In this document: positions 2,765-61,757 of the stretch, one piece after another
Position numbering within the stretch: the stretch's first letter is position 1
Layout: every line of letters starts with the position of its first letter
Assembly (NCBI GenBank): GCA_907163375.1
Contig: CAJQUW010007240.1
Location: forward strand, 558,001-622,000
Length of the DNA: 64,000 nt
Direction of reading: 5' to 3'
DNA from: Prostheceraeus crozeri
Lineage: Eukaryota; Platyhelminthes; Polycladida; Euryleptidae
Notes under the pieces: generated by a model
The model's input: only the letters and a program-made list of their open reading frames with translations
The model's database searches: none
What the model was told of the DNA's origin: nothing
Program-made: the position numbers and the translations under genes

Positions 2765-2899
2765 GAGAAGTGTGTTATGTTGCGTGTGGCGCGTGAGTGT
2801 CCTCCCATTTCATTCCATTCATCATTTTTCTTCCCCTCTGCATTCCATATCCGAGGATATGTGGCGGGCTTGGGACTGCTTTAGCTGCATTAGAAGGTT

Positions 2900-2915
2900 G
2901 GCCCTTAAAAGAGCC
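2900..2915 (-). terminator. Histone-type mRNA 3' stem-loop after the coiled-coil gene (A)
   Basis: On the minus strand the sequence reads GGCTCTTTTAAGGGCC: a 6-bp stem (one G-U pair) and a 4-nt loop UUUA, agreeing with the metazoan histone consensus GGYYCUUYUNAGRGCC class. It starts 30 nt after the predicted stop of the coiled-coil gene. The identical 16-mer is in element B at 24297-24312. In histone mRNAs this element replaces the poly(A) tail and binds SLBP. A purine-rich downstream element is not obvious here. Confidence 0.7.
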
Positions 2916-2944: not shown

Positions 2945-4088
2945 CTACTGCAAACACTCTGAAAGAAAAATAATAGGAGATTAGATGAGCTACAAAAATG
3001 ATTATGTTGAATAGACTTACTGGGAACCTTCTTTCTAACTTTTCTGACGAAGAAGTCATCAAGCTCTCCATTGATGTTCATCGTCATGTGGAGGCAGCGA
3101 ACTCCATCCCCCTCATAACACAACTGTGTTTCATTTAAGTCTCTGGAGATTGTAGGGGCATCACATACGTTATTCTCAAAGAGGGGAAGATAAACTTCAT
3201 ATACTCTCCTTTTTCGACACTTCAAACGCTCATGCAGTCGCTCCACTTCACCGTCAACCTCTTATTAATAACCTTCACCTCCTCCGTCTCCTTCACCACG
3301 CTTCGAATCCGCTCTATCCCTTCATCCTTCCTCGACACACTCGCCTGCAAACTCTCCACCAAACCTGTCTTCCTCATCAACTCGCTCCTTTCCGCCATCC
3401 ATTCCTTCTCCTTCTTTCTCAAGCTCTCCAACTCTTCCCTCGTTGCCCTATACCCCTCAACCTTCACCTTCAGCTCTTCATTCTCCTTCAAAACTTTTCT
3501 ATTATTACTTTCCAAAGCCATCACACGATCCTTCATTCTCACAAATACCTCCGTATCATACGCCTCTTGCTGCCGTGGCGATGACGCTGCCATCGGCTTA
3601 GCCACTTCCTCCCCCTCCCACTCTTCCTTCAAATCCGCTATATCCCCAAACAAATCTTCCATCACCGCATCCAAATCAACATCATCCTGCTTCTTCATTT
3701 TCGCTCTCAACTCAACTTCCTCACTCGAACTCCCATCACTCGAAATCACATCACTCGCATTCCTCACCACTTTCTCCCCAATCACGTCCTGAATCGTTGC
3801 CACCGCCTTTCTCACCTCTTCCCTTTCCAACAACTCTCCCACAAACCATGCCTTGAACCCCTTCTCTCCGATTTTCCCACTCTCACACTGCAAATGCGCC
3901 TTCATAAATTCCTTCTCATCCCCCATCACAGATTTCCGACAAGACACACACAACCTCAACATCACTTTCCTCTCATGGCCCATCGTCCCCTCTTTTTCTT
4001 TTAAATGCTTCTTCAGTTCGCTACCTCTCGCAATCTTGCCACAACTACACTTGCCAACCAACATCTTTGCGTTATTCGGTTTTGTCAT
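2945..4088 (-). pseudogene. Zn-finger/coiled-coil protein (A), frameshifted
   Basis: The start is ATG at 4088, a few bases after an intron acceptor (TTTACAG). The N-terminus has paired CxC and CxxC plus His motifs (CSCGK, CVSCRK, HLQC), a likely zinc-binding module. Residues about 190-290 are heptad-rich and charged. The frame shifts near 3235; the C-terminal part continues in another frame (KRRVYEVYLPLFENN, then CYEGDGVRCLH). A donor at 3020 joins to a tiny last exon 2958-2945, as in element B. It is homologous to 24342-25444 (closer) and 59344-60522 (more distant). Function unknown; a structural or DNA-organising role is only a guess. Confidence 0.7.
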
Positions 4089-4775: not shown

Positions 4776-4798
4776 TGTGAATATGCAATCGATAACAG

Positions 4799-6840
4799 GG
4801 AGGGGAGGTCAGTGAAATTTGAAAATTTGATGAAAAATGTTTTGGTGACGGTCCCAGGTCGAAATTCCACACTTTGGAAAATTTTCAAAATTTTACCCAT
4901 ACAAAGCCACTCTGACACTTAGGATTTTTTCAGGTGAGCGAGCTCCGACCTAAAATCTTGTAACCGCTCTAACTTTTGAACGAAGACAGATATGAACAAG
5001 CCGTTTCTTTCACTGAATTTGTCTCACTCTTAGCTTTCAAACGAGCTATGACACGACAAAATCCGTCCACTGGAAGCCAAAATTGAAGCGAGCTGTCCAG
5101 AGGGGGGGGGGTCAGTGAAATTTGAAAATTTGATGAAAAATGTTTTGGTGACGGTCCCAGGTCGAAATTCCACACTTTGGAAAATTTTCAAAATTTTACC
5201 CATACAAAGCCACTCTGACACAGGATTTTTTCAGGTGAGCGAGCTCCGACCTAAAGTCTTGTAACCGCTCTAACTTTTGAACGAAGACAGATAGGAACAA
5301 GCCGATTCTTTCACTGAATTTGTCTCACTCTTAGCTTTCAAACGAGCTATGGCACCACAAAATCCGTCCACTGGAAGCCAAGATTGAAGCGAGCTGTCCA
5401 GAGGGGGGGGAGGTCAGTGAAATTTGAAAATTTGATGAAAAATGTTTTGGTGACGGTCCCAGGTCGAAATTCCACACTTTGGAAAATTTTCAAAATTTTA
5501 CCCATACAAAGCCACTCTGACACTTAGGATTTTTTCAGGTGAGCGAGCTCCGACCTAAAATCTTGTAACCGCTCTAACTTTTGAACGAAGACAGATATGA
5601 ACAAGCCGTTTCTTTCACTGAATTTGTCTCACTCTTAGCTTTCAAACGAGCTATGACACGACAAAATCCGTCCACTGGAAGCCAAGATTGAAGCGAGCTG
5701 TCCAGAGGGGGGGGAGGTCAGTGAAATTTGAAAATTTGATGAAAAATGTTTTGGTGACGGTCCCAGGTCGAAATTCCACACTTTGGAAAATTTTCAAAAT
5801 TTTACCCATACAAAGCCACTCTGACACTTAGGATTTTTTCAGGTGAGCGAGCTCCGACCTAAAATCTTGTAACCGCTCTAACTTTTGAACGAAGACAGAT
5901 ATGAACAAGCCGTTTCTTTCACTGAATTTGTCTCACTCTTAGCTTTCAAACGAGCTATTGCACGACAAAATCCGTCCACTGGAAGCCAAGATTGAAGCGA
6001 GCTGTCCAGAGGGGGGGGGACGTCAGCGAAAATTTTTTCTCTCCGATGGCGTTCAAATTCACCAAACCGATGCAGAATTTCACGCTGAATCCGAATCTGG
6101 CCTCCGTTTTCTCATCCGATGGTTCGTTTGGGCGCTACACACCAAAACGTCCCAAATTCTAACTCTGTCGTTTTTTCGAAAAATGTTGAAAATTTTTTCT
6201 CGCCGATTGACTTGAAACTCACCTTACAGATAGAGAATTTCACGCTGATTCCAAATCTGAAATCCGTTTTCCAATCCGATGCTTCGTTTTGAAGCTACAG
6301 CCCAAAACGTCCCAAATTCTAACTCTGTCGTTTTTCGCCAATGTCCCAAAATCTTAAATGGCGTTTCACATCTAAACGAAGACAGATAGGAACAAGCCGA
6401 TTCTTTCAGTGAATTTGTCTCACTCTTAGCTTTCAAACGAGCTATGACACGACAAAATCCGTCCACTGGAAGCCAAAATCGAAGCGAGCTGTCCAGAGGG
6501 GGGGGACGTCAGCGAAAATTTTTCTCTCCGATTGACTTGAAACTCACCCTACCGATGCAGAATTTCACGCTGAATCCGAATCTGGCCTCCGTTTTCACAT
6601 CCGAGCACTCCTTCCACTCGAAACAACCCATTTTACAACCCAACATTCAGCAGATTGCACGAAAAACATCACACACTATAGCCTCAAGACAAAACCTGGC
6701 GGTCGCCCAAGACCACCACGACACTCTGTCGTTCCAGAGGGGGGGGGAGTCAGACCCGAAGCACCACGGCGGCCGACCACGACACTCTGCCGTTCCAGAG
6801 GGGGGGGCGCCGGTCGAGTGTTCGCCGTTTTCTTACTACT
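4799..6840. repeat. Right subterminal repeats and terminus of element A
   Basis: About 305-bp units (phase points near 4805, 5111, 5411, 5716) each contain a run of 8-10 G within CCAGAGGGGGGGG, the motif TTTTCAGGTGAGCGAGCTC, and a TTGAACGAAGACAGATA block. Later units (6000-6540) share the same G-run but diverge. The last 120 bp carry two shorter G-run units and finish TTACTACT at 6840. The same units, inverted, make up the left ends of B and C. Open frames inside are repeat artefacts. Confidence 0.9.
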
Positions 6841-11798: not shown

Positions 11799-11862
11799 AT
11801 TGGCTCACATAGTGTCAAATGTGGATTCGCAGGAGACTATAAAAGCAGACGTCTTCATTTCA
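11799..11862 (+). promoter_or_regulatory. ATTGG/TATA/Inr promoter of the 76-aa gene
   Basis: ATTGG at 11799-11803, TATAAAA at 11838-11844, and TCATT initiator-like repeats at about 11855-11863, about 20-25 nt downstream. The same grammar precedes 14821 and 37358. Confidence 0.6.
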
Positions 11863-12190: not shown

Positions 12191-12210
12191 ATCCTGTGAA
12201 CGCTCCAAAA

Positions 12211-12226
12211 GGTCCTCTTAAGGGCC
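12211..12226 (+). terminator. Histone-type mRNA 3' stem-loop (plus strand, B)
   Basis: GGTCCTCTTAAGGGCC: a 6-bp stem with one U-G pair and loop CUUA. Its flanks fit the histone consensus well: CTCCAAAA on the 5' side and ACCTCA on the 3' side. It starts 20 nt after the TAA at 12188-12190. This is the only plus-strand example that I found. Confidence 0.7.
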
Positions 12227-12313
12227 ACCTCATATGTCACTGCTAAGCTAACAATTTACTTTTCTCTGATGATCATGAATGTACTTAGTGGTATTCTTTC
12301 GTTACAGACTGCC

Positions 12314-13006
12314 ATGGCCATGAATCCTACTCCAACTGCTGCATCACTGAATCCTCAACATCTCGAGCTGTGAAATCCGAAAATTGAAAAGGTAATTCAC
12401 AGCTATCCTACCTACAAACAACAAGTGCCCTACAACGGTGTTCGACTCTATCTTCAAACGCCGGCGGTATACTTACCAAAAGTGGATACGCAAGTAAATC
12501 GTTGCAGTCAAAACCTAAGTATCCCTATTGATAATTGGTTGCGTCAGCAGCTTGACATTTTAGAAGACTTTGTGAGGCAAAAGGCTCTTATTCCTACTGA
12601 ACTATTGCAGTTGTGGCCAGAAAAGAAAACTTCTTATTATAAACCATTGTATCGCGGCACTCGCTGCTATATTTTACAAAGCAAGTATTGTAAAGTCACT
12701 TCAGGAGTGACAGTTGAACAGTCAGTTGAAACAGAATTGTCATCGCTAGGTGCTGGCTTTTATTCATTTCATATTGAGGTGCCTGTTGTTTATGTGGGAC
12801 CTCATCAATCTGACGGGAATTTGATTTCTCTCAATTTGCGCATTGCTCAAATTCATCATCAACCTGAGTTAACAGGACTTGATCACATTGAGAAAGTCAT
12901 TGATTCTTGTGTCAAAGAGTGTCAAGAACCTGTCACGAAACCTAAACGTCGTCGCGCATCAAAGAAAGATGGTGTTACCACCAAAGAGAAATCTTACGTA
13001 TTGTAA
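12314..13006 (+). pseudogene. OB-like candidate ssDNA-binding protein (B copy 1), nonsense codon near start
   Basis: ATG at 12314 starts a frame (MAMNPTPTAAS) interrupted by TGA at 12371-12373 where the element C homologue reads through. The frame is then open to 13006 without another Met. The core contains IDNWLRQQLDILEDFV, YKPLYRGTRCYI, and GAGFYSFHIEVPVVYVGPH followed by SLNLRIAQI. This G.Y.F.I.V...Y.G.H pattern resembles viral OB-fold ssDNA-binding proteins, but the assignment is weak. It ends in a basic, NLS-like tail (KPKRRRASKK). It is homologous to 14821-15390 and 37358-38042. Confidence 0.5.
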
Positions 13007-24120: not shown

Positions 24121-24296
24121 CCTTTGTACGACACTGACAAGAGCCTGTTCACTAGCAAAGAGAGAAGTCTGTGATGTGTTGCGTATGGCGCATGAATGTC
24201 CTCCCTTCATTCCATTCACCGTTTTTCTTCCCCTCTGCATTCCATATCCGTAGATATGTGGCGGGCTTGGGACCGCTTTAGCTGCATTAGAAGGTT

Positions 24297-24312
24297 GGCC
24301 CTTAAAAGAGCC
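24297..24312 (-). terminator. Histone-type mRNA 3' stem-loop after the coiled-coil gene (B)
   Basis: Minus strand GGCTCTTTTAAGGGCC, identical to the element A hairpin at 2900-2915, starting 30 nt after the TGA of the coiled-coil gene. The flanks GACCCAT and AACC are also shared with A. Stem of 6 bp with one G-U pair, loop UUUA. Confidence 0.7.
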
Positions 24313-24341: not shown

Positions 24342-25444
24342 TCACTTCTGCAAAAACTCTAAAAGAAAAGGAATAGGAGATTAGAGGCGGCAAGGAAATG
24401 ATCATGTTGAAGTAACTTACTCGGCTTTTTCTTTACAACTTTTCGGACGATAAAGTCTTCCAAATCGCCACTCATTTTAATGGATAGGTGGAGACATCGC
24501 ACACCTTCGCCTTCATAACATGTCTGTGTCGAATTGGGGTCGTCTGTGAGGGTCGGCACATCGCAGATGTTGTTTTCAAAGAGGGGAAGTTGGACCTCAT
24601 ACACTCTCTTCCTCTTCACTCTTCTCTCAACCTCTCGCAACTTTTCCACTTCATTCCCCAACCGCCTGTTGATCACCTTCGTCTCTTCCACTTCCTTCAC
24701 CACACCTCGCATCCACTCCACCTCATTCTTCTCACACAGCAACTCCGACTCTAAGCCCTCAAGCGCCTTCACTCGCTTCATCATACCACTCCTTTCCTTC
24801 AACCACGCCTGCTCCTTCACTCGCATCTCCTCCAACTGCTCCCTCATCACCTTTATACCCTCAACCTTAGCCTTCAACTCATCATTCTCCTTCAAAACTT
24901 TTCTATTTACACTCTCCATATCCATCATACGATCCTTCAATCTCACAAACGCCTCCGTATCATGCGCCTCTTTCCTAGGCGATGATGTCGCTACAGGCTC
25001 AGCCACCTCACCATCCGACTCATCAGCAAACTCACTCCCAAACAATGAGACCATCAACTTCCTAGTCTCATCACTCGCTCGCTCAATCACTCCTTCTACC
25101 TCTACTTCCTCTTCACTCACCACTACCTCACGATCCTTCGCTACAGCACCCTCAATACTTCTAACTGCTGCATTCAACTCCTCCTTCGCCTTAATTAATT
25201 CATTCATCCACTCACGAAACGACTGCGCTCCAATGTTTCCGGATGGGCAAGATTCATGCGCCTTCCGGAAACCCTCAACATCATCCTCATCACACACCAC
25301 CCTATGATGAACACAGACCTTAAAAACATGCACTCTCTCATGTTGATCCAGCGTCCCCTCTTTAATATGCTTACGGTATTCGCTGCCCCTTGCTAATCTA
25401 CCACAGGAGCATTGAGTAACGATAAAGCGCGGAGTTTTAGTCAT
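24342..25444 (-). CDS. Zn-finger/coiled-coil protein (B)
   Basis: Predicted CDS: main exon 25444-24421 and last exon 24358-24342 (ends FLQK, then TGA), joined by a GTAAGT donor and a TTTTTAG acceptor. N-terminus: CSCGRLARGSE, H..H and CPSG motifs, a likely zinc module of about 80 residues. Residues about 150-270 are long charged heptads, a probable coiled coil. The C-terminal domain has VYEVQLPLFENN, CYEGEGVRCLHLS and FIVRKVVKK. Frame intact. The 5'-UTR intron acceptor lies 8 nt before the ATG. Related genes are in A and C; function not recognised. Confidence 0.7.
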
Positions 25445-43098: not shown

Positions 43099-46000
43099 TA
43101 ATAATAATAATAATGCTTTATTGAAACCAAAATACATAGAGCGGTACATGGTTATGACTGCAAAGTCATGTAAACTGTGAAAATCTGACAAAGGAGTTGG
43201 TGTAATAAGATGGTTTCCGCAGAGGAGCTGACAGTTGCCTTTGATGTCTAACTTTGCTGATATGTTGACGGACGTTGAAAAAGGAGGACAGGCGATGAGT
43301 GTCACGATGATGAGACACTTTGCGGATGAGTTTAACGCAAACACGATCTAACATTTGTCTTAGGGATGGCTTGTTGTATATGCTGCACCAACGTTTGGCC
43401 AAACGATCCAGACGTTCAAATTTGCAAAAGTGTTTCATTTTCATAACACATACAATGGGCCAACAAAATGATAAACGAGAAAAAACAAGACCCATGTATG
43501 CCTGCCACACAACATGATCTTCATTACAACTGATCTTCAGACGCTTTACAATGGACATAATACTACAGCATTTTTTGTATAAAAACGAGACATGAGAGTC
43601 CCATGTCAAATTAGCACTAAAGAAAACACCGAGGATTTTCAAATTTACAACTTCCTCTATGACTTCATCATTGATAACAATATTAGTACATCTGGTGGGA
43701 TCAAAACGCTTAGAAAGAGTCATACATTTGGTTTTATTCACATTTATTGTCATTTTCTTTTGGGCTACCCAATTACAAAAGGTGTCAACGTCCTCTTGAA
43801 AAAGATCATTACTGGTGTTACCATTCGATAAGTGAATGAGGGTTATATCGTCAGCATACGAAATAACCTTCGTGTTAGCGAACTGTGGGACATCATTAAT
43901 CATGACAACAAAAAGTAGAGGTCCTAACACAGAGCCCTGAGGCACCCCACTGGTCACCTCTCTCCAAGGTGTGGAAATGCCATTAACGTAAACACGTTGA
44001 AAACGATTTGACAAAAAGCTTTGTATGAGATTCACTACAAGGGGATTGGAAGGGAAAAGGGTTCCAAGACTTTGGAGCAAGGTGAGGTGACTGAGTGAAT
44101 CGAAAGCCTTATTGAAATCAATGGCAAGGAGTCGACAAAAGTTTGAGGGGCTGCTAGCGATGTGTTGAAGGGAAGTGAGACGAATGGTCAGAAGGGCATT
44201 AGTGCAACCACCATTATCACCTGGGATGAAATCGAACTGTCGGCGATCGAATTTGCCTTGTAGGGAAGGTAGAAGAATAAGATCTCGAATCAATTTCTCA
44301 AGACACTTGCTCAAGAAGGGCAAAATGGAAATGGGACGATGAGCACATGAATCCTTCTTAGGGAGCGGGAGAACATTCGCTTTCTTCCAGATATCGGGAA
44401 AGATGTTGGCTTGAAGGCATAGATTAAAAATCCTTGTGATAGGGGAAGCAAGTATATCAATGAAGGAGCGAAAGAAGATGCCAGAAACACCATCTGGTCC
44501 AGTAGAGTTAGACTTGGTGTTCTTCACCATGGTAGTGACTTGTGATTCCTCAACTATCGGGAAAGAATGATCCTCACACAGAAGATTGTCATTATCGAAA
44601 AGGGAAATATCAGAAGCAAGAAAATTGGACTTGAAAGTGTCATTGATTTCAAGAGCTAATTTTTCATCGAGTTTTCTACTTTGTTTCCTCCGAATTTGTG
44701 AGTTGATGAGTTTCCAGGTATCCGAATTGGACGATCCAGCAGTAAGATTGCATAAGTAACGTCGCTTAGCTTTGTAAGACTCCTCAAGAAACTTCTCCCT
44801 CAAGTGCAAGTACTTAACCATATTACCACGGGAAAGGGCTTTATCGCGATCGTCAGATAGAGCCTTCAGGGTAGGGGTCATCCAAAGTGGGTCAGTATTT
44901 CTCATGCGAACAATTCTCTCAGGAAAAAAGATATCGTAAAAAAACTGACATAGAAATTGAAATTCAGATACAATTTGGTTGACATCATTGACAGAATCGG
45001 TTGGGCGAGAACAAAAAATAATGTTCCAGTCAACAGAGGCCAAAACATTGCGGCAATTTGCAAATGAAGATGGAGTAAATGAACGGGTTTTGACCTTGGT
45101 GGTAACAATGGGCTTGGGAGAGAGAGGTCTAGCAAAAATACCTAAATGATCAGAACGACCAAGCGGACTGAGGTATTCACAATCAGCATAAGACAGGGAG
45201 TCAGATACGGCAATCACGTCAAGAATATTTGTCCCTCGAGTTGGTTGTAGAACCAATTGTTTGAGGGAGTTATAAGCACAAAAATTAGACAAATGAGTCC
45301 TTAAATCATTAATGTCACCAGTTACAATAAAGTTCTGGGAAACACTGTCATCGATTAAATTTTGTATAAAATCTAATACACACTCATGGGCGCCTAAATT
45401 ATTCCAGTATGGGTGATATAAAAGAATGAGTGTTACATTAAAAGAATCAAAACGGCATGACAGTACATTAGATCGGGAATTAGGAATAGGACAGTTCGAC
45501 TCTAAATGCACATGTATGTCAAGTTCAGATTTAAAGTAAATTGCTACACCGCCGCCATGACAATCACGATCTAAGCGAATAATGGAGTAGCCAGGAATAG
45601 ATATCGCCAGATCGTCAATATTTTCATCAAACCAAGTTTCAGTGACACAAATGATGTCAGGTTGATGTTTATTTATACGAAGGTTAAGATCTTCTACCTT
45701 GTTGAACAGTGACCGGGCATTGAACAAAAGAATAGAGGGCGGCTTGGTAGGAAAGGACTTTGGCTTGCGCAACTTGGGAGGCTCCCGCGTATATTCTTCG
45801 GATTGGAAAGGAATATAGGGATGACGCAAGGTGTCCGGGCGTAAAATTTTGTTAAACCATAGCTTTCGACGTAGAGATCTAGTAATGGGAAATTGCTGTT
45901 GCTGATTCACCGAGAGGAGGGCCGATCGCGAATAAGTGTGGCGCATGAAAACTGAGAGGAGAGAACGACGGGAAAGAAGTGTACACGATGATGTAGCAGC

Positions 46001-58106: not shown

Positions 58107-58247
58107 CGTTCAAGTTGACTGATAGCAGATTCAACTTAATGATAGTATTCGCCAATCCGAAGACTGCCCAGGGCAAACCGCGTGGAGGTTCTATCATGTC
58201 TTGCCCCATGGTGGCCCTTAAGAGAGCCGATGGTTCGTTCTCGGGGT
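58107..58247. repeat. 140-bp 3' module, copy 1
   Basis: Direct repeat shared with 58628-58771 and 59102-59247, beginning AACGTTCAAGTTGACTGATAG and ending with the histone-type stem-loop and CGTTCTCGGG. Each copy forms the 3' flank of one minus-strand gene. Confidence 0.85.
58213..58228 (-). terminator. Histone-type stem-loop, module 1
   Basis: Minus strand GGCTCTCTTAAGGGCC, 6-bp stem with one U-G pair, loop CUUA, followed by ACCATGGGGCAAGACATGA. The ACC flank fits histone mRNAs and GGCAAGACAUGA recalls the purine-rich histone downstream element. Starts 34 nt after the stop of the 83-aa gene. Confidence 0.7.
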
Positions 58248-58262
58248 GCGAATTTAAGTTGA

Positions 58263-58514
58263 CTATTGGCCGGAATAGTCAATGGGTATGACGGTTAGGT
58301 TGTCATAGACCCTATACCGCCGAGGTCGTGCTGGTGCATCTGGCACCTTTCGGATGCGAGTGGTATTCGGAGTCCACACCTCATCCGTCCAAACGATCCT
58401 CTTGATCTTCCCCTTATCATCCTCTTCATCCCACTCGTCGAGGATGACGAACTCGGGAATGGCGTTGTCTTCATCGATGAAGACGGGAATGCTGTTGGCA
58501 GATGTCGCTTCCAT
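58263..58514 (-). CDS. Acidic 83-aa protein in a histone-gene-like unit
   Basis: Intronless, from MEATSANSIPV. The first half is strongly acidic (FIDEDN, DEWDEEDDKGK), the second basic/Pro-rich (DAPARPRRYRVY). No known family. TATATAA lies 42 nt upstream with a TCATTCA start-like motif between, and a histone-type stem-loop follows 34 nt after the stop. The unit is tandem with the 88-aa gene unit. Confidence 0.6.
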   Translation of the reverse strand: MEATSANSIPVFIDEDNAIPEFVILDEWDEEDDKGKIKRIVWTDEVWTPNTTRIRKVPDAPARPRRYRVYDNLTVIPIDYSGQ

Positions 58515-58529
58515 CGTGACTTGAAATTG

Positions 58530-58562
58530 AATGAGAAGCGCTACAATCTTCTGGCTTATATA
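58530..58562 (-). promoter_or_regulatory. TATA/Inr promoter of the 83-aa gene
   Basis: TATATAA (58562-58556, minus) and TCATTCA about 26 nt downstream. Confidence 0.55.
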
Positions 58563-58627
58563 GGGTTTTCAACAATGAATTGCTCAACAGCGAATCAGAA
58601 TGCTTCAGGGATAGCAATCGACTGCAT

Positions 58628-58771
58628 AACGTTCAAGTTGACTGATAGCAGATTCAACTTAATGATAGTATTCGCCAGTCCGAAGACTGCCCAGGGCAAA
58701 CCGCGAGGAGGTTCTATCAAATCTTGCCCCATGGTGGCCCTTAAGAGAGCCGATGGTTCGTTCTCGGGAGT
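58628..58771. repeat. 140-bp 3' module, copy 2
   Basis: Second copy of the direct repeat, nearly identical to copies 1 and 3; it forms the 3' flank of the 88-aa gene. Confidence 0.85.
58736..58751 (-). terminator. Histone-type stem-loop, module 2
   Basis: Minus strand GGCTCTCTTAAGGGCC with ACCATGGGGCAAGA flank, starting 30 nt after the TAA of the 88-aa gene. Confidence 0.7.
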
Positions 58772-58780
58772 AACGTCATC

Positions 58781-59047
58781 TTACACCCTACCAATTCTGC
58801 TGAGAGAGTCTTTGACTCTCTCTTTGGTAGCACTGTCGACTTCCACACTAACTGGTACATTGCTAAAAAGTGGAATGTAGCGCCATTCCGTTGGATTGAC
58901 AGCAGTTGCTGTCATCGGATTGCCAATCCGAGCAAGATTATTGTGGATTCTGTCTTGCTCCTCTAGCCTGACAAACTCCTCAAATAAATTTCGCGGCCTT
59001 AACTGCGGTCCGCGAGGAGAGCTGACTTGACTGTTCGGCGTCTGCAT
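58781..59047 (-). CDS. 88-aa protein in a histone-gene-like unit
   Basis: Intronless, from MQTPNSQVSS. Ser/Pro/Arg-rich start, then a helical RNLFEEFVRLEEQDRIHNNL segment and a C-terminal helix (ATKERVKDSLSRIG). No family recognised. Upstream on the minus strand is GGGTATATAAACC and repeated TCATTTCA; downstream a histone-type stem-loop 30 nt after the stop. Confidence 0.6.
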   Translation of the reverse strand: MQTPNSQVSSPRGPQLRPRNLFEEFVRLEEQDRIHNNLARIGNPMTATAVNPTEWRYIPLFSNVPVSVEVDSATKERVKDSLSRIGRV

Positions 59048-59055
59048 GATTGAAA

Positions 59056-59086
59056 TGAAATGAAATGAGAGGCAGTGGTTTATATA
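59056..59086 (-). promoter_or_regulatory. TATA/Inr promoter of the 88-aa gene
   Basis: TATATAAA at 59086-59079 (minus) and three TCATTTCA-like repeats 20-30 nt downstream, just before the ATG at 59047. Confidence 0.6.
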
Positions 59087-59101
59087 CCCCTCTAACGCGA
59101 C

Positions 59102-59247
59102 GCAACGTTCAAGTTGACTGATAGCAGATTCAACTTAATGATAGTATTCGCCAGTCCGAAGACTGCCCAGGGCAAACCGCGTGGAGGTTCTATCATGTCT
59201 TGCCCCTAGGTGGCCCTTAAGAGAGCCGATGGTTCGTTCTCGGGAGT
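59102..59247. repeat. 140-bp 3' module, copy 3
   Basis: Third copy of the direct repeat; it is the 3' flank of the coiled-coil gene. Confidence 0.85.
59212..59227 (-). terminator. Histone-type stem-loop, module 3
   Basis: Minus strand GGCTCTCTTAAGGGCC followed by ACCTAGGGGCAAGACATGA. It lies 117 nt after the genomic stop of the coiled-coil gene, but only about 57 nt if the GTAAGT...TTGCAG intron right after the stop (about 59338-59282) is removed. Confidence 0.7.
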
Positions 59248-59343
59248 GTCGTGATGGGATGGTGAAGGCGGGCAAAGATCTGCAATGAAAATGATATGTA
59301 TTAGAATAGGATATACTATCTTATTTACTTTTCACTTACCAAG

Positions 59344-60522
59344 TTAGCCATCCTTTGGCAGTCTCGCGCGCTTCCGAATAGAGAATTTGTACAGATGGCC
59401 GCGCATTCTCAGGCTGGCATGGAGGCATTTTTTCGTCGGATGGCCGTTATAACAAATGATGGACTCGTCTAAATTTTGATTCACGAGTACTTCGCCGTCC
59501 AAATGATTATCCCGAATAGGGATGTGAAATTCAAACAAACGATCCTCATTCACACGATTCCACTCATCCCTCATGCGCTCCAACTTCTCATACGCATGCC
59601 TCTCATCACCCCGCCGAGCCACAGTCCTCTCCAACTCAACATTCCTCGCTCTCAACACACTCATCTCCTTCATCATCTCCTCAAACTTCGCTTCTGCATC
59701 TCTCATTCTTCTCTCTGCAGCACTCGCCCTCTTCTCACACTCATCATTCTTCTCTTCCAACTCTCGCGTCTTACTCTTCAAATCAGTCACACTACGCCTC
59801 ATTCTAATATTCTCATCCGCTACCTCCTTCGACTTCAGTTCCTTCTTTTTCAACTCATCCAACTCCTTCACAACTTCATCCTTCACCTTCTTCAAACTCT
59901 CATACTTATTTATCAAAAAATCATGCGGCATCACCTGCGACACATGCCTCTTCTCTTCATCCTTCAACCACCTCGCCGACTGCTTACGTATCCCACCACT
60001 CTTCACTTTTGGGGAAGATGAGCTCTTCGGGGGGTCGGTGATGACAATGTTTGACACCTCCGACGACGAAGAGCTCAACTTCCTCACACGCTTCCTCACA
60101 CGCTCCCTATCTAAATCCACATCATCCTCATCATCACTCTCAAGCACTCTCTTTCGCCCAATCTCAGCCTCCAACGACGCAACCGCTCTCGCCAACTCAT
60201 CATTCTCAACAACATTCTCAACAACGTTCTCAACCTTACCCTCTCGCTCGATCGCCAACATTCGCTCCCTCTCTTCCACAATCAACTGCGTGAATCTCAA
60301 GTCACTCACCAAACCTCCACTACAGTCAGCATGCACTCTGTAGAAACGCGCCTCATCCTCATCACCCTTCAGCACTCTACACTTCACACACGCAACCCTA
60401 TTCAGGATAATCATGTGGTCGGTGCCCGCCTTCTTGACATGAGCCTTGGCGTCCGCACTGCGATTAATTCGCCCACATGTGCACATCTTGATATGATATT
60501 TTCTATTCTTGTCATTTGCCAT
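59344..60522 (-). CDS. Zn-finger/coiled-coil protein (C)
   Basis: 392 aa from MANDKNRKYH, 8-10 nt-scale distance after a CTTACAG acceptor. N-terminal zinc module: CTCGRINRS, H..., CVKCRV, C-G. The centre (about 190-340) is a long charged coiled coil (many E/K/R heptads). The C-terminal domain LFEFHIPIRDNH and CYNGHPTKKCLHASLRMRG corresponds to the conserved C-terminal domain in A and B. Frame intact; a 3'-UTR intron and histone-type stem-loop follow. Function unknown. Confidence 0.7.
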   Translation of the reverse strand: MANDKNRKYHIKMCTCGRINRSADAKAHVKKAGTDHMIILNRVACVKCRVLKGDEDEARFYRVHADCSGGLVSDLRFTQLIVEERERMLAIEREGKVENVVENVVENDELARAVASLEAEIGRKRVLESDDEDDVDLDRERVRKRVRKLSSSSSEVSNIVITDPPKSSSSPKVKSGGIRKQSARWLKDEEKRHVSQVMPHDFLINKYESLKKVKDEVVKELDELKKKELKSKEVADENIRMRRSVTDLKSKTRELEEKNDECEKRASAAERRMRDAEAKFEEMMKEMSVLRARNVELERTVARRGDERHAYEKLERMRDEWNRVNEDRLFEFHIPIRDNHLDGEVLVNQNLDESIICYNGHPTKKCLHASLRMRGHLYKFSIRKRARLPKDG

Positions 60523-61309: not shown

Positions 61310-61757
61310 GTAACATGCCACAAGTGAAAAAATTCCTAAGTGTGAGAGCTGCAGTGTGGTGAAAATTTTGAAAAATTTAAAACTTCCGAATTTCGACCTG
61401 GGACCTTTACCAAAACATTTTTCATCAAATTTCACTGACCCCCCCTCCCCCCCTCGTTCAGAGAAATTTGATGAAAAATGTTTTGGTGAAGGTCCCAGGT
61501 CGAAATTCCACACTTTGGAAAATTTTCAAAATTTTACCCATACAAAGCCACTCTGACACTTAGGATTTTTACAGGTGAGCTCCGACCTAAAATCTTAAAT
61601 GGCGTCTCACACCTAAACGAAGACAGATATGAACAAGCCGTTTCTTTCACTGAATTTGTCTCACTCTTAGCTTTCAAACGAGCTATTGCACGACAAAATC
61701 CGTCCACTAGAAGCCAAGATCGAAGCTAGCTGTCCAGAGGGGGGGAGGTCTTTTCAG
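61310..61757. repeat. Right subterminal repeat units of C
   Basis: Units with ACCTGGGACCxTxACCAAAACA in both orientations around a C/G-run pair at 61441-61459. Related to units at 4799-6540 and 36882-37200. Confidence 0.85.

Follow-up and report, generated by a model that had tools for sequence, protein, structure and literature searches.

How does a virus-like DNA element finish the mRNAs of its genes? The question is raised by a 64,000-nt stretch of the genome of the polyclad flatworm Prostheceraeus crozeri (assembly GCA_907163375.1, contig CAJQUW010007240.1, positions 558,001 to 622,000; hereafter the window), which carries sequences of three Polinton/Maverick elements, A, B and C. Genes of all three are followed by a hairpin of the kind that ends replication-dependent histone mRNAs (histone-type stem-loop, HSL), and just past this hairpin, at the minus-strand gene ends, lies the fold of a self-cleaving ribozyme, either hepatitis delta virus (HDV)-like or twister. 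We consider it probable that these modules are self-contained makers of histone-type, poly(A)-less mRNA 3´ ends by ribozyme. What we read from the sequence comprises the hairpins, the ribozyme folds, their register, covariation, the replacement of one ribozyme class by another behind orthologous genes, and likeness to host histone genes.

The initial annotation had described 16-nt hairpins after genes of C, A and B and assigned them to the histone stem-loop consensus. All of these 16-mers are present at the positions it gave, and a strict test (GGYYYTHHTHARRRCC with a full 6-bp stem) finds six sites in the 64 kb, all six exact, against none in 40 dinucleotide shuffles. Membership was judged by the consensus GGYYYUHHUHARRRCC with an AC-type 3´ flank; the flanks found are ACC or AACC, and every hairpin is in sense orientation relative to the preceding open reading frame (ORF). 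The hairpins, recognized by pattern against shuffles, are:

59212..59227, minus strand: HSL GGCTCTCTTAAGGGCC, 3´ of the C coiled-coil gene
58736..58751, minus strand: HSL 3´ of the C 88-aa gene
58213..58228, minus strand: HSL 3´ of the C 83-aa gene
24297..24312, minus strand: HSL GGCTCTTTTAAGGGCC, 3´ of the B coiled-coil gene
2900..2915, minus strand: HSL of element A
12211..12226, plus strand: HSL GGTCCTCTTAAGGGCC, flanks CCAAAA and ACC, of the B plus-strand gene

The genes that end in them are:

59344..60522, minus strand: C coiled-coil gene, 392-aa ORF, apparent intron in the 3´ untranslated region (UTR) before the HSL
58781..59047, minus strand: C 88-aa single-ORF gene, TATA box at 59086
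58263..58514, minus strand: C 83-aa single-ORF gene, TATA box at 58562
24359..25444, minus strand: B coiled-coil gene, 361-aa ORF, ortholog of the C gene
3222..4088, minus strand: A coiled-coil ORF, 288 aa, with 44% identity to the B ORF across 282 aa
11960..12190, plus strand: B short single-ORF gene, its end 20 nt upstream of the HSL, TATA-like site at 11838

The second and third C genes are thus the short, intronless, TATA-driven genes that had been described, and the same hairpin class does follow the coiled-coil genes of A and B and one plus-strand gene of B. In genomic DNA, the stop codon precedes the HSL by 29 nt in the 88-aa gene, 34 nt in the 83-aa gene and 46 nt in the B coiled-coil ORF; the distance is 116 nt in the C coiled-coil gene, with the apparent 3´ UTR intron between. 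The coiled-coil ORF of A, which is shorter than that of B and probably decayed, stops about 306 nt before its hairpin.

A search of the window with the Rfam histone 3´ stem-loop model (RF00032), which the initial annotation had proposed, matched five of the six HSLs at 17.6-22.8 bits, all below the cut-off of 34, and did not list the B hairpin at 24297. The hairpin of a host H3 gene (C10661:124253) itself reaches only 31.1 bits, and two relatives of the C modules from the divergent family D described below pass the cut-off (L100, 35.4 bits; L103, 34.4 bits; L numbers denote fetched loci). Over the genome at least nine matches lie above it, among the 75 of 295,389 candidates that were scored; of eight that were read, six run into D-type ribozyme sequence and two (L097 and L098) are not recognizably Polinton. 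The CTTA loop present in hairpins here is, together with CTTT, among the loops reported for histone hairpins of C. elegans in the accessible part of PMC1924863.

The three C genes had been said to end in one 140-bp module. There are indeed three copies, 91-95% identical to the reference copy, and the repeat measures 152 nt. It includes a part that had been overlooked: the 69 nt after hairpin and tail form an HDV-like ribozyme in each copy.

59138..59206, minus strand: HDV-like ribozyme, cut predicted 5 nt past the stem, between 59207 and 59206 (Rfam, descriptor)
58662..58730, minus strand: HDV-like ribozyme, 28.1 bits with RF00094 and 27.2 bits with RF02682, both below gathering (Rfam, descriptor, alignment)
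58139..58207, minus strand: HDV-like ribozyme (Rfam, descriptor, alignment)

The nested double pseudoknot of P1, P2, P3 and P4 that defines this class is present. P1 pairs GGGGCAA with TTGCCCT, with a G-U pair at the cut, and P2 pairs TGATAG with CTATCA; P3 is ACC/GGT around TCCTCGC or TCCACGC, and P4 is CAGTC-TTCG-GACTG (GATTG in the third copy), followed by GCGAA. Hallmarks of HDV-like ribozymes are a G-U wobble at the cut site, an L3 of the TCCTCGC type and C-N-R-A after P4. A descriptor independent of Rfam (P1 of 7 bp, P2, P3, P4, L3 and a C-containing joint) hit exactly three sites in the window, each 5 nt past a C stem, and eight in 20 shuffled 64-kb windows. The predicted product ends carry ACCUA or ACCAU past the stem.

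Behind the minus-strand hairpins of B and A stands a ribozyme of another class:

24227..24293, minus strand: type-P1 twister after the B HSL, RF03160 41.3 bits, E 1.2e-5, predicted U|A cut 8 nt past the stem
2830..2896, minus strand: type-P1 twister after the A HSL, 35.2 bits, E 6.6e-4, one non-standard pair

The conserved core and pairing of type-P1 twisters are present: the B copy matches most of the RF03160 core letters with no non-standard pair, and its predicted cut falls at the dinucleotide U-A, at which twisters cleave (PMC5408937, seen in part). The predicted product end is AACCUUCU, 8 nt past the stem.

All results on modules, copy number and histones come from the one host genome, of 2.05 Gb, that contains the window. 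In it, the pattern HSL-ACCNN-GGGGCA has 12,393 exact matches and that of an HSL with a twister start at 8 nt has 1,300, with none for either reversed-pattern control. A GGT-stem hairpin search gave 274 matches (reversed control, 4) and led to family D, which has two modules in 18 of the 30 loci fetched. Its 88-aa gene shares, in most loci, about 50% identity with the C version, and its coiled-coil gene 39-58% with the B version over stretches of various lengths. Most loci were fetched through hairpin patterns, and a search by ribozyme only (12,038 matches, control 0) was therefore added. Among its first 100 sites, positions being compared by hand, 88 have a strict HSL in register, and the remaining 12 have at the same place a hairpin or remnant altered in one or a few letters or in the tail; the copies being related by descent, these are not 100 independent cases. 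The 85 distinct ribozymes of the fetched loci follow a perfect hairpin in 83 cases and a one-mismatch hairpin in two. The tail between stem and cut is 5 nt in 52 of 73 HDV modules, 4 nt in 18 and 9 nt in one, two being without a perfect hairpin, and it is 8 nt in all 12 twister modules. Histone mRNAs end 4-5 nt past the stem, with cuts at 5 nt in mouse and 4 nt in Drosophila, according to the part of PMC7026596 that was available.

From 73 distinct HSL-HDV modules, five with indels (L017, L091:1689, L095, L099 and L101) were dropped and 68 aligned. Paired cells make up 97.7% of 1,904, against 92.9% after shuffling (none of 500 as high) and 32-47% with partners slid; for P1-P4, where the P1' strand was part of the row filter, the range is 96.4-97.9%. 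Cells changed on both sides number 108 against 36.9 shuffled (0/500), and the covariation score reaches 0.197, compared with 0.106 after shuffling and no more than 0.080 after sliding, in a shuffle test that the relatedness of the copies inflates. Double changes occur in the HSL (C-G/U-A, twice), in P1 (G-C/A-U, 20 rows), in P2 (A-U/G-C, 19 rows; G-C/A-U, one row) and in P4 (A-U/U-A, 26 rows). Changes in HSL pair 5, the P1 5´ strand, P2 and P4 lie outside the filters. As read from the alignment, these compensatory changes support the predicted HSL, P1, P2 and P4. The catalytic C after P4 (column 88) is kept in at least 90% of rows, and the first pair is G-U in 65 of 68.

These changes also bear on the idea that the module is a DNA-level repeat, such as a binding or recombination site, that was amplified with the element and whose RNA folds are fortuitous. 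The closeness of the three C copies to the reference copy would suit such a site, as would an inverted repeat that follows the ribozyme:

58635..58660, minus strand: inverted repeat AAGTTGA..TCAACTT just past the ribozyme, also in the other two C copies and similar in family D

We regard this idea as very improbable: against it stand compensatory changes that include G-U pairs, the strand and register relative to the stop codon, and the occupation of one site by two ribozyme classes. Comparison of C with D over eight loci gives 80-86% identity for the ribozyme, 66-71% for coding sequence, 69-79% from stop to hairpin and 48-61% for one following spacer. The stretch with the inverted repeat is 82-90% conserved in the same comparison and may belong to the promoter of the gene that follows.

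The ribozyme class has been exchanged behind corresponding genes. The coiled-coil gene occupies the same place in A, B and C, and its three versions are orthologous (B and C are 25% identical over 393 aligned columns, E 5e-15). The module behind it is HSL-twister in A and B, HSL-HDV in C and D. For the 88-aa gene, C and D again have HSL-HDV, and L058, whose gene is 59% identical to that of C, has HSL-twister. In L060, both arrangements occur within one stretch: a coiled-coil gene runs into HSL-twister, and the next gene, of 83 aa and 88% identical to that of C, into HSL-HDV. Two unrelated self-cleaving classes thus stand behind one conserved hairpin, and the cut just past the hairpin is therefore what appears to be selected. 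One could instead suppose that the ribozymes serve the downstream side, freeing the next transcript from read-through RNA as at the 5´ ends of R2 and L1Tc, with the hairpin incidental. HDV-like ribozymes have been described at the 5´ ends of retrotransposons (PMC8256844, seen in part), and the C modules do sit between tandem genes. We find this improbable, however, since C genes 2 and 3 have a TATA box of their own past the module, the hairpin would stay with the upstream product, at 4-9 nt from the cut for 83 of the 85 ribozymes, and it is retained when the ribozyme class changes.

Are these the signals of the host's own histone genes? Histone-fold matches in the genome number at least 150, from scoring 150 of its 735 candidates. 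Among the 12 H3-like ends that were sampled, four have GGCCCTCTTAAGGGCC 26-30 nt past the stop, without a ribozyme, and the other eight (L128-L130, L132-L134, L137 and L138) have no such hairpin in the fetched stretch. Several of these hairpin-less ends, which are scattered over many contigs, diverge at or soon after GTGAACGC, and they are perhaps truncated copies. The 5´ flank of host H3 ends, GTGAACGC with CAAAC or a similar string ahead of the stem, is seen again in Polinton modules, and GAACG is found in the 18 nt before the hairpin in 3/4 host H3 ends, 47/59 HDV modules, 4/6 twister modules, 4/4 hairpins of the B plus-strand class and 2/2 of an LTR (long terminal repeat)-like class, as against 0.9% of window 18-mers. 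The likeness between host H3 ends and Polinton modules stops after the tail, where the ribozyme starts. Thus the claim of histone-type 3´ ends on Polinton genes is borne out, with the hairpin shared by 4 of the 12 H3 ends and the 5´ flank by three of those four.

The further proposal of the initial annotation, processing guided by U7, fared otherwise. In that account host SLBP, U7 and CPSF73 make the ends, and the ribozymes are decayed or accessory; the likeness of hairpin and 5´ flank to host H3 ends and the B plus-strand gene, which has a hairpin and no ribozyme, would be expected from it. In C, D, A and the minus-strand module of B, however, a ribozyme fold placed to cut 4-8 nt past the stem fills the position of the U7 element. 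We set U7-type processing of the C, A and B minus-strand modules aside because this fold occupies the site; no U7-binding element was recognized there, as judged by reading, with no U7 RNA aligned. The helices stay paired through changes, P1 begins with a wobble in nearly every row, and two unrelated classes are found at the site, so that host processing of these ends seems to us improbable, on a par with a role for the downstream transcript.

The hairpin can occur alone, because the B plus-strand HSL and the LTR-like class are without a recognized ribozyme. For the former (12211), a hammerhead or other ribozyme was considered and rejected, there being no Rfam ribozyme match up to E 10. A 9-bp helix seen by eye after it, ACTGCTAAG/CTTAGTGGT, is without compensatory change in all three of L067, L072 and L073, the last of which has lost one of the pairs. 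This class (12205-12320, plus strand; L067, L072, L073 and L109) also has a compensated pair, GGTCCT/AGGACC, in L067, L072 and L073. The B plus-strand end might be processed by the host. The LTR-like class (L106, L107, L108 and L114) has the tail ACCACC, a host-histone-like GAACG flank, AATAAA 17-18 nt past the stem in three of four cases, and an outer helix GCCAAATC/GATTTGGC, which has a G-U variant in L108 and is partly broken in L114; these hairpins lie in sequence that resembles a retrotransposon LTR (ends TAACA). In L098, the hairpin has a GTGAACG flank and is followed by purine-rich AACAAAGAAAAA, resembling a U7-binding element; a histone ORF was not seen in the preceding 360 nt.

Besides the relatedness of the copies, several points weigh against our interpretation that the modules make histone-type ends by ribozyme. 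Neither ribozyme class reaches its Rfam gathering score: the HDV modules score 28.1 of 50 with RF00094 and at best 27.2 of 44 in the window with RF02682 (28.9 of 44 in L110), and the twister 41.3 of 67.2 with RF03160. Minimum-energy folding told us little: for two whole modules the energies fall in the ordinary range (z -0.13 and -0.53), in a program whose model does not include pseudoknots. The five modules of 73 lost to indels mean that some copies are damaged. The number of double-change pairs (6 against 5.1 shuffled, 49/500) and of pair types (20 against 20.7, 494/500) shows no excess. Part of the pairing of the hairpin and most of its invariance are built in, because rows were chosen by hairpin patterns and the P1' filter, and the U-A pair 3 of the D hairpins was fixed by the GGT-stem search pattern. 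The twister tail of 8 nt is longer than that of histone mRNAs, and the B plus-strand hairpin has no recognized ribozyme at all. Finally, the 300 nt downstream of each of the three C genes and of the B coiled-coil ORF contain no poly(A) signal; this absence is uninformative and can add little, because 8 of 13 control ORFs also lack one; and the second D module has AATAAA directly past the ribozyme.

Catalysis, SLBP binding, the lack of poly(A), translation and any cell-cycle effect we infer within the following model. RNA polymerase II would transcribe a short gene with its HSL and ribozyme; the HDV-like or twister ribozyme would fold and cut its own strand 4-8 nt past the stem, substituting for the U7-guided cut by CPSF73. 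The product would be an mRNA with a stem-loop and a short ACC-type tail and no poly(A) tail, and host SLBP could bind this end and provide for export, translation and turnover as in histone mRNAs. Dependence on SLBP would link stability or translation to S phase, and such coupling, which the initial annotation had suggested, is possible. Ribozyme cutting would free cleavage itself from cell-cycle-regulated U7 processing. Uridylation starts the decay of histone mRNAs, and the predicted 2´,3´-cyclic phosphate end might resist 3´-end uridylation.

The remaining content of the window bears on the identity of the elements. Marks of a Polinton/Maverick are present: PolB (a 1266-aa ORF whose relatives include PF03175 proteins), an rve integrase match (E 4e-11), a Ulp1-type protease match that is weak (E 0.0016, under its cut-off), and terminal inverted repeats (arms 36339-36884/61755-62300, 99%). 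PolB queries found no relatives among viral contigs and genome contigs. HSL patterns gave five and two matches in viral contigs, inside phage-like sequence and read as chance, and the HSL+HDV pattern gave none; scoring 8,000 candidates for the coiled-coil protein gave two relatives at E 0.001. Other features are:

43166-45946, minus strand: 926-aa ORF encoding endonuclease and reverse transcriptase domains, apparently of a non-LTR retrotransposon inserted into element C
61398-61498, minus strand: long hairpin near the right terminal repeat of C, with an Rfam MIR7533 match far under the cut-off
1733-2650 and 4797-6040: tandem repeats of about 206 nt and of 301-304 nt, inside or adjoining element A

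The modules share features with several known systems. With the 3´ ends of replication-dependent histone mRNAs, made by SLBP, U7 snRNP and CPSF73, they have in common the stem-loop consensus, a tail of 4-5 nt and a short distance from the stop codon, as well as the hairpin type and 5´ flank of H3 genes in the same genome; they differ in the ribozyme at the U7-element position and in belonging to non-histone genes, in Polintons. The HDV-like ribozymes of HDV, R2, L1Tc, CPEB3 and Chilo iridescent virus have the same nested double pseudoknot, but the accessible part of PMC8256844 places such ribozymes at retrotransposon 5´ ends and in insect iridescent virus, whereas here they stand at the 3´ ends of protein genes behind an HSL. 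The twisters share most RF03160 core residues and the cleavage dinucleotide of type P1 (PMC5408937, in part) and differ in standing behind a histone stem-loop, without a P3 stem. A parallel in design is the engineered C3P3 system, in which, as far as the excerpt of PMC10908868 goes, an HDV ribozyme finishes the mRNA and a histone stem-loop was tried in the 3´ UTR; that is a human design with a templated poly(A) track, whereas the modules here are natural and apparently without poly(A). Within the open-licence PMC literature, as represented by titles, abstract starts and term counts, we found no recognizable account of ribozymes at Polinton gene ends or of natural hairpin-ribozyme fusions.

We suggest that these sequences probably represent a third natural mechanism of eukaryotic mRNA 3´-end formation besides polyadenylation and U7-guided cleavage, in which a virus-like DNA element acquired the histone hairpin of its host and coupled it to interchangeable HDV-like or twister ribozymes, producing poly(A)-less histone-type ends without a protein endonuclease and perhaps escaping decay at the end of S phase through the cyclic-phosphate end. 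If this is true, RNA catalysis would form a second class of poly(A)-less end, and with it a new means of completing an mRNA, and thousands of ribozymes in one genome would have a function. It would also mean that mobile DNA captures or mimics the histone RNA signals of its host, and that nature holds parts for protein-free mRNA ends.

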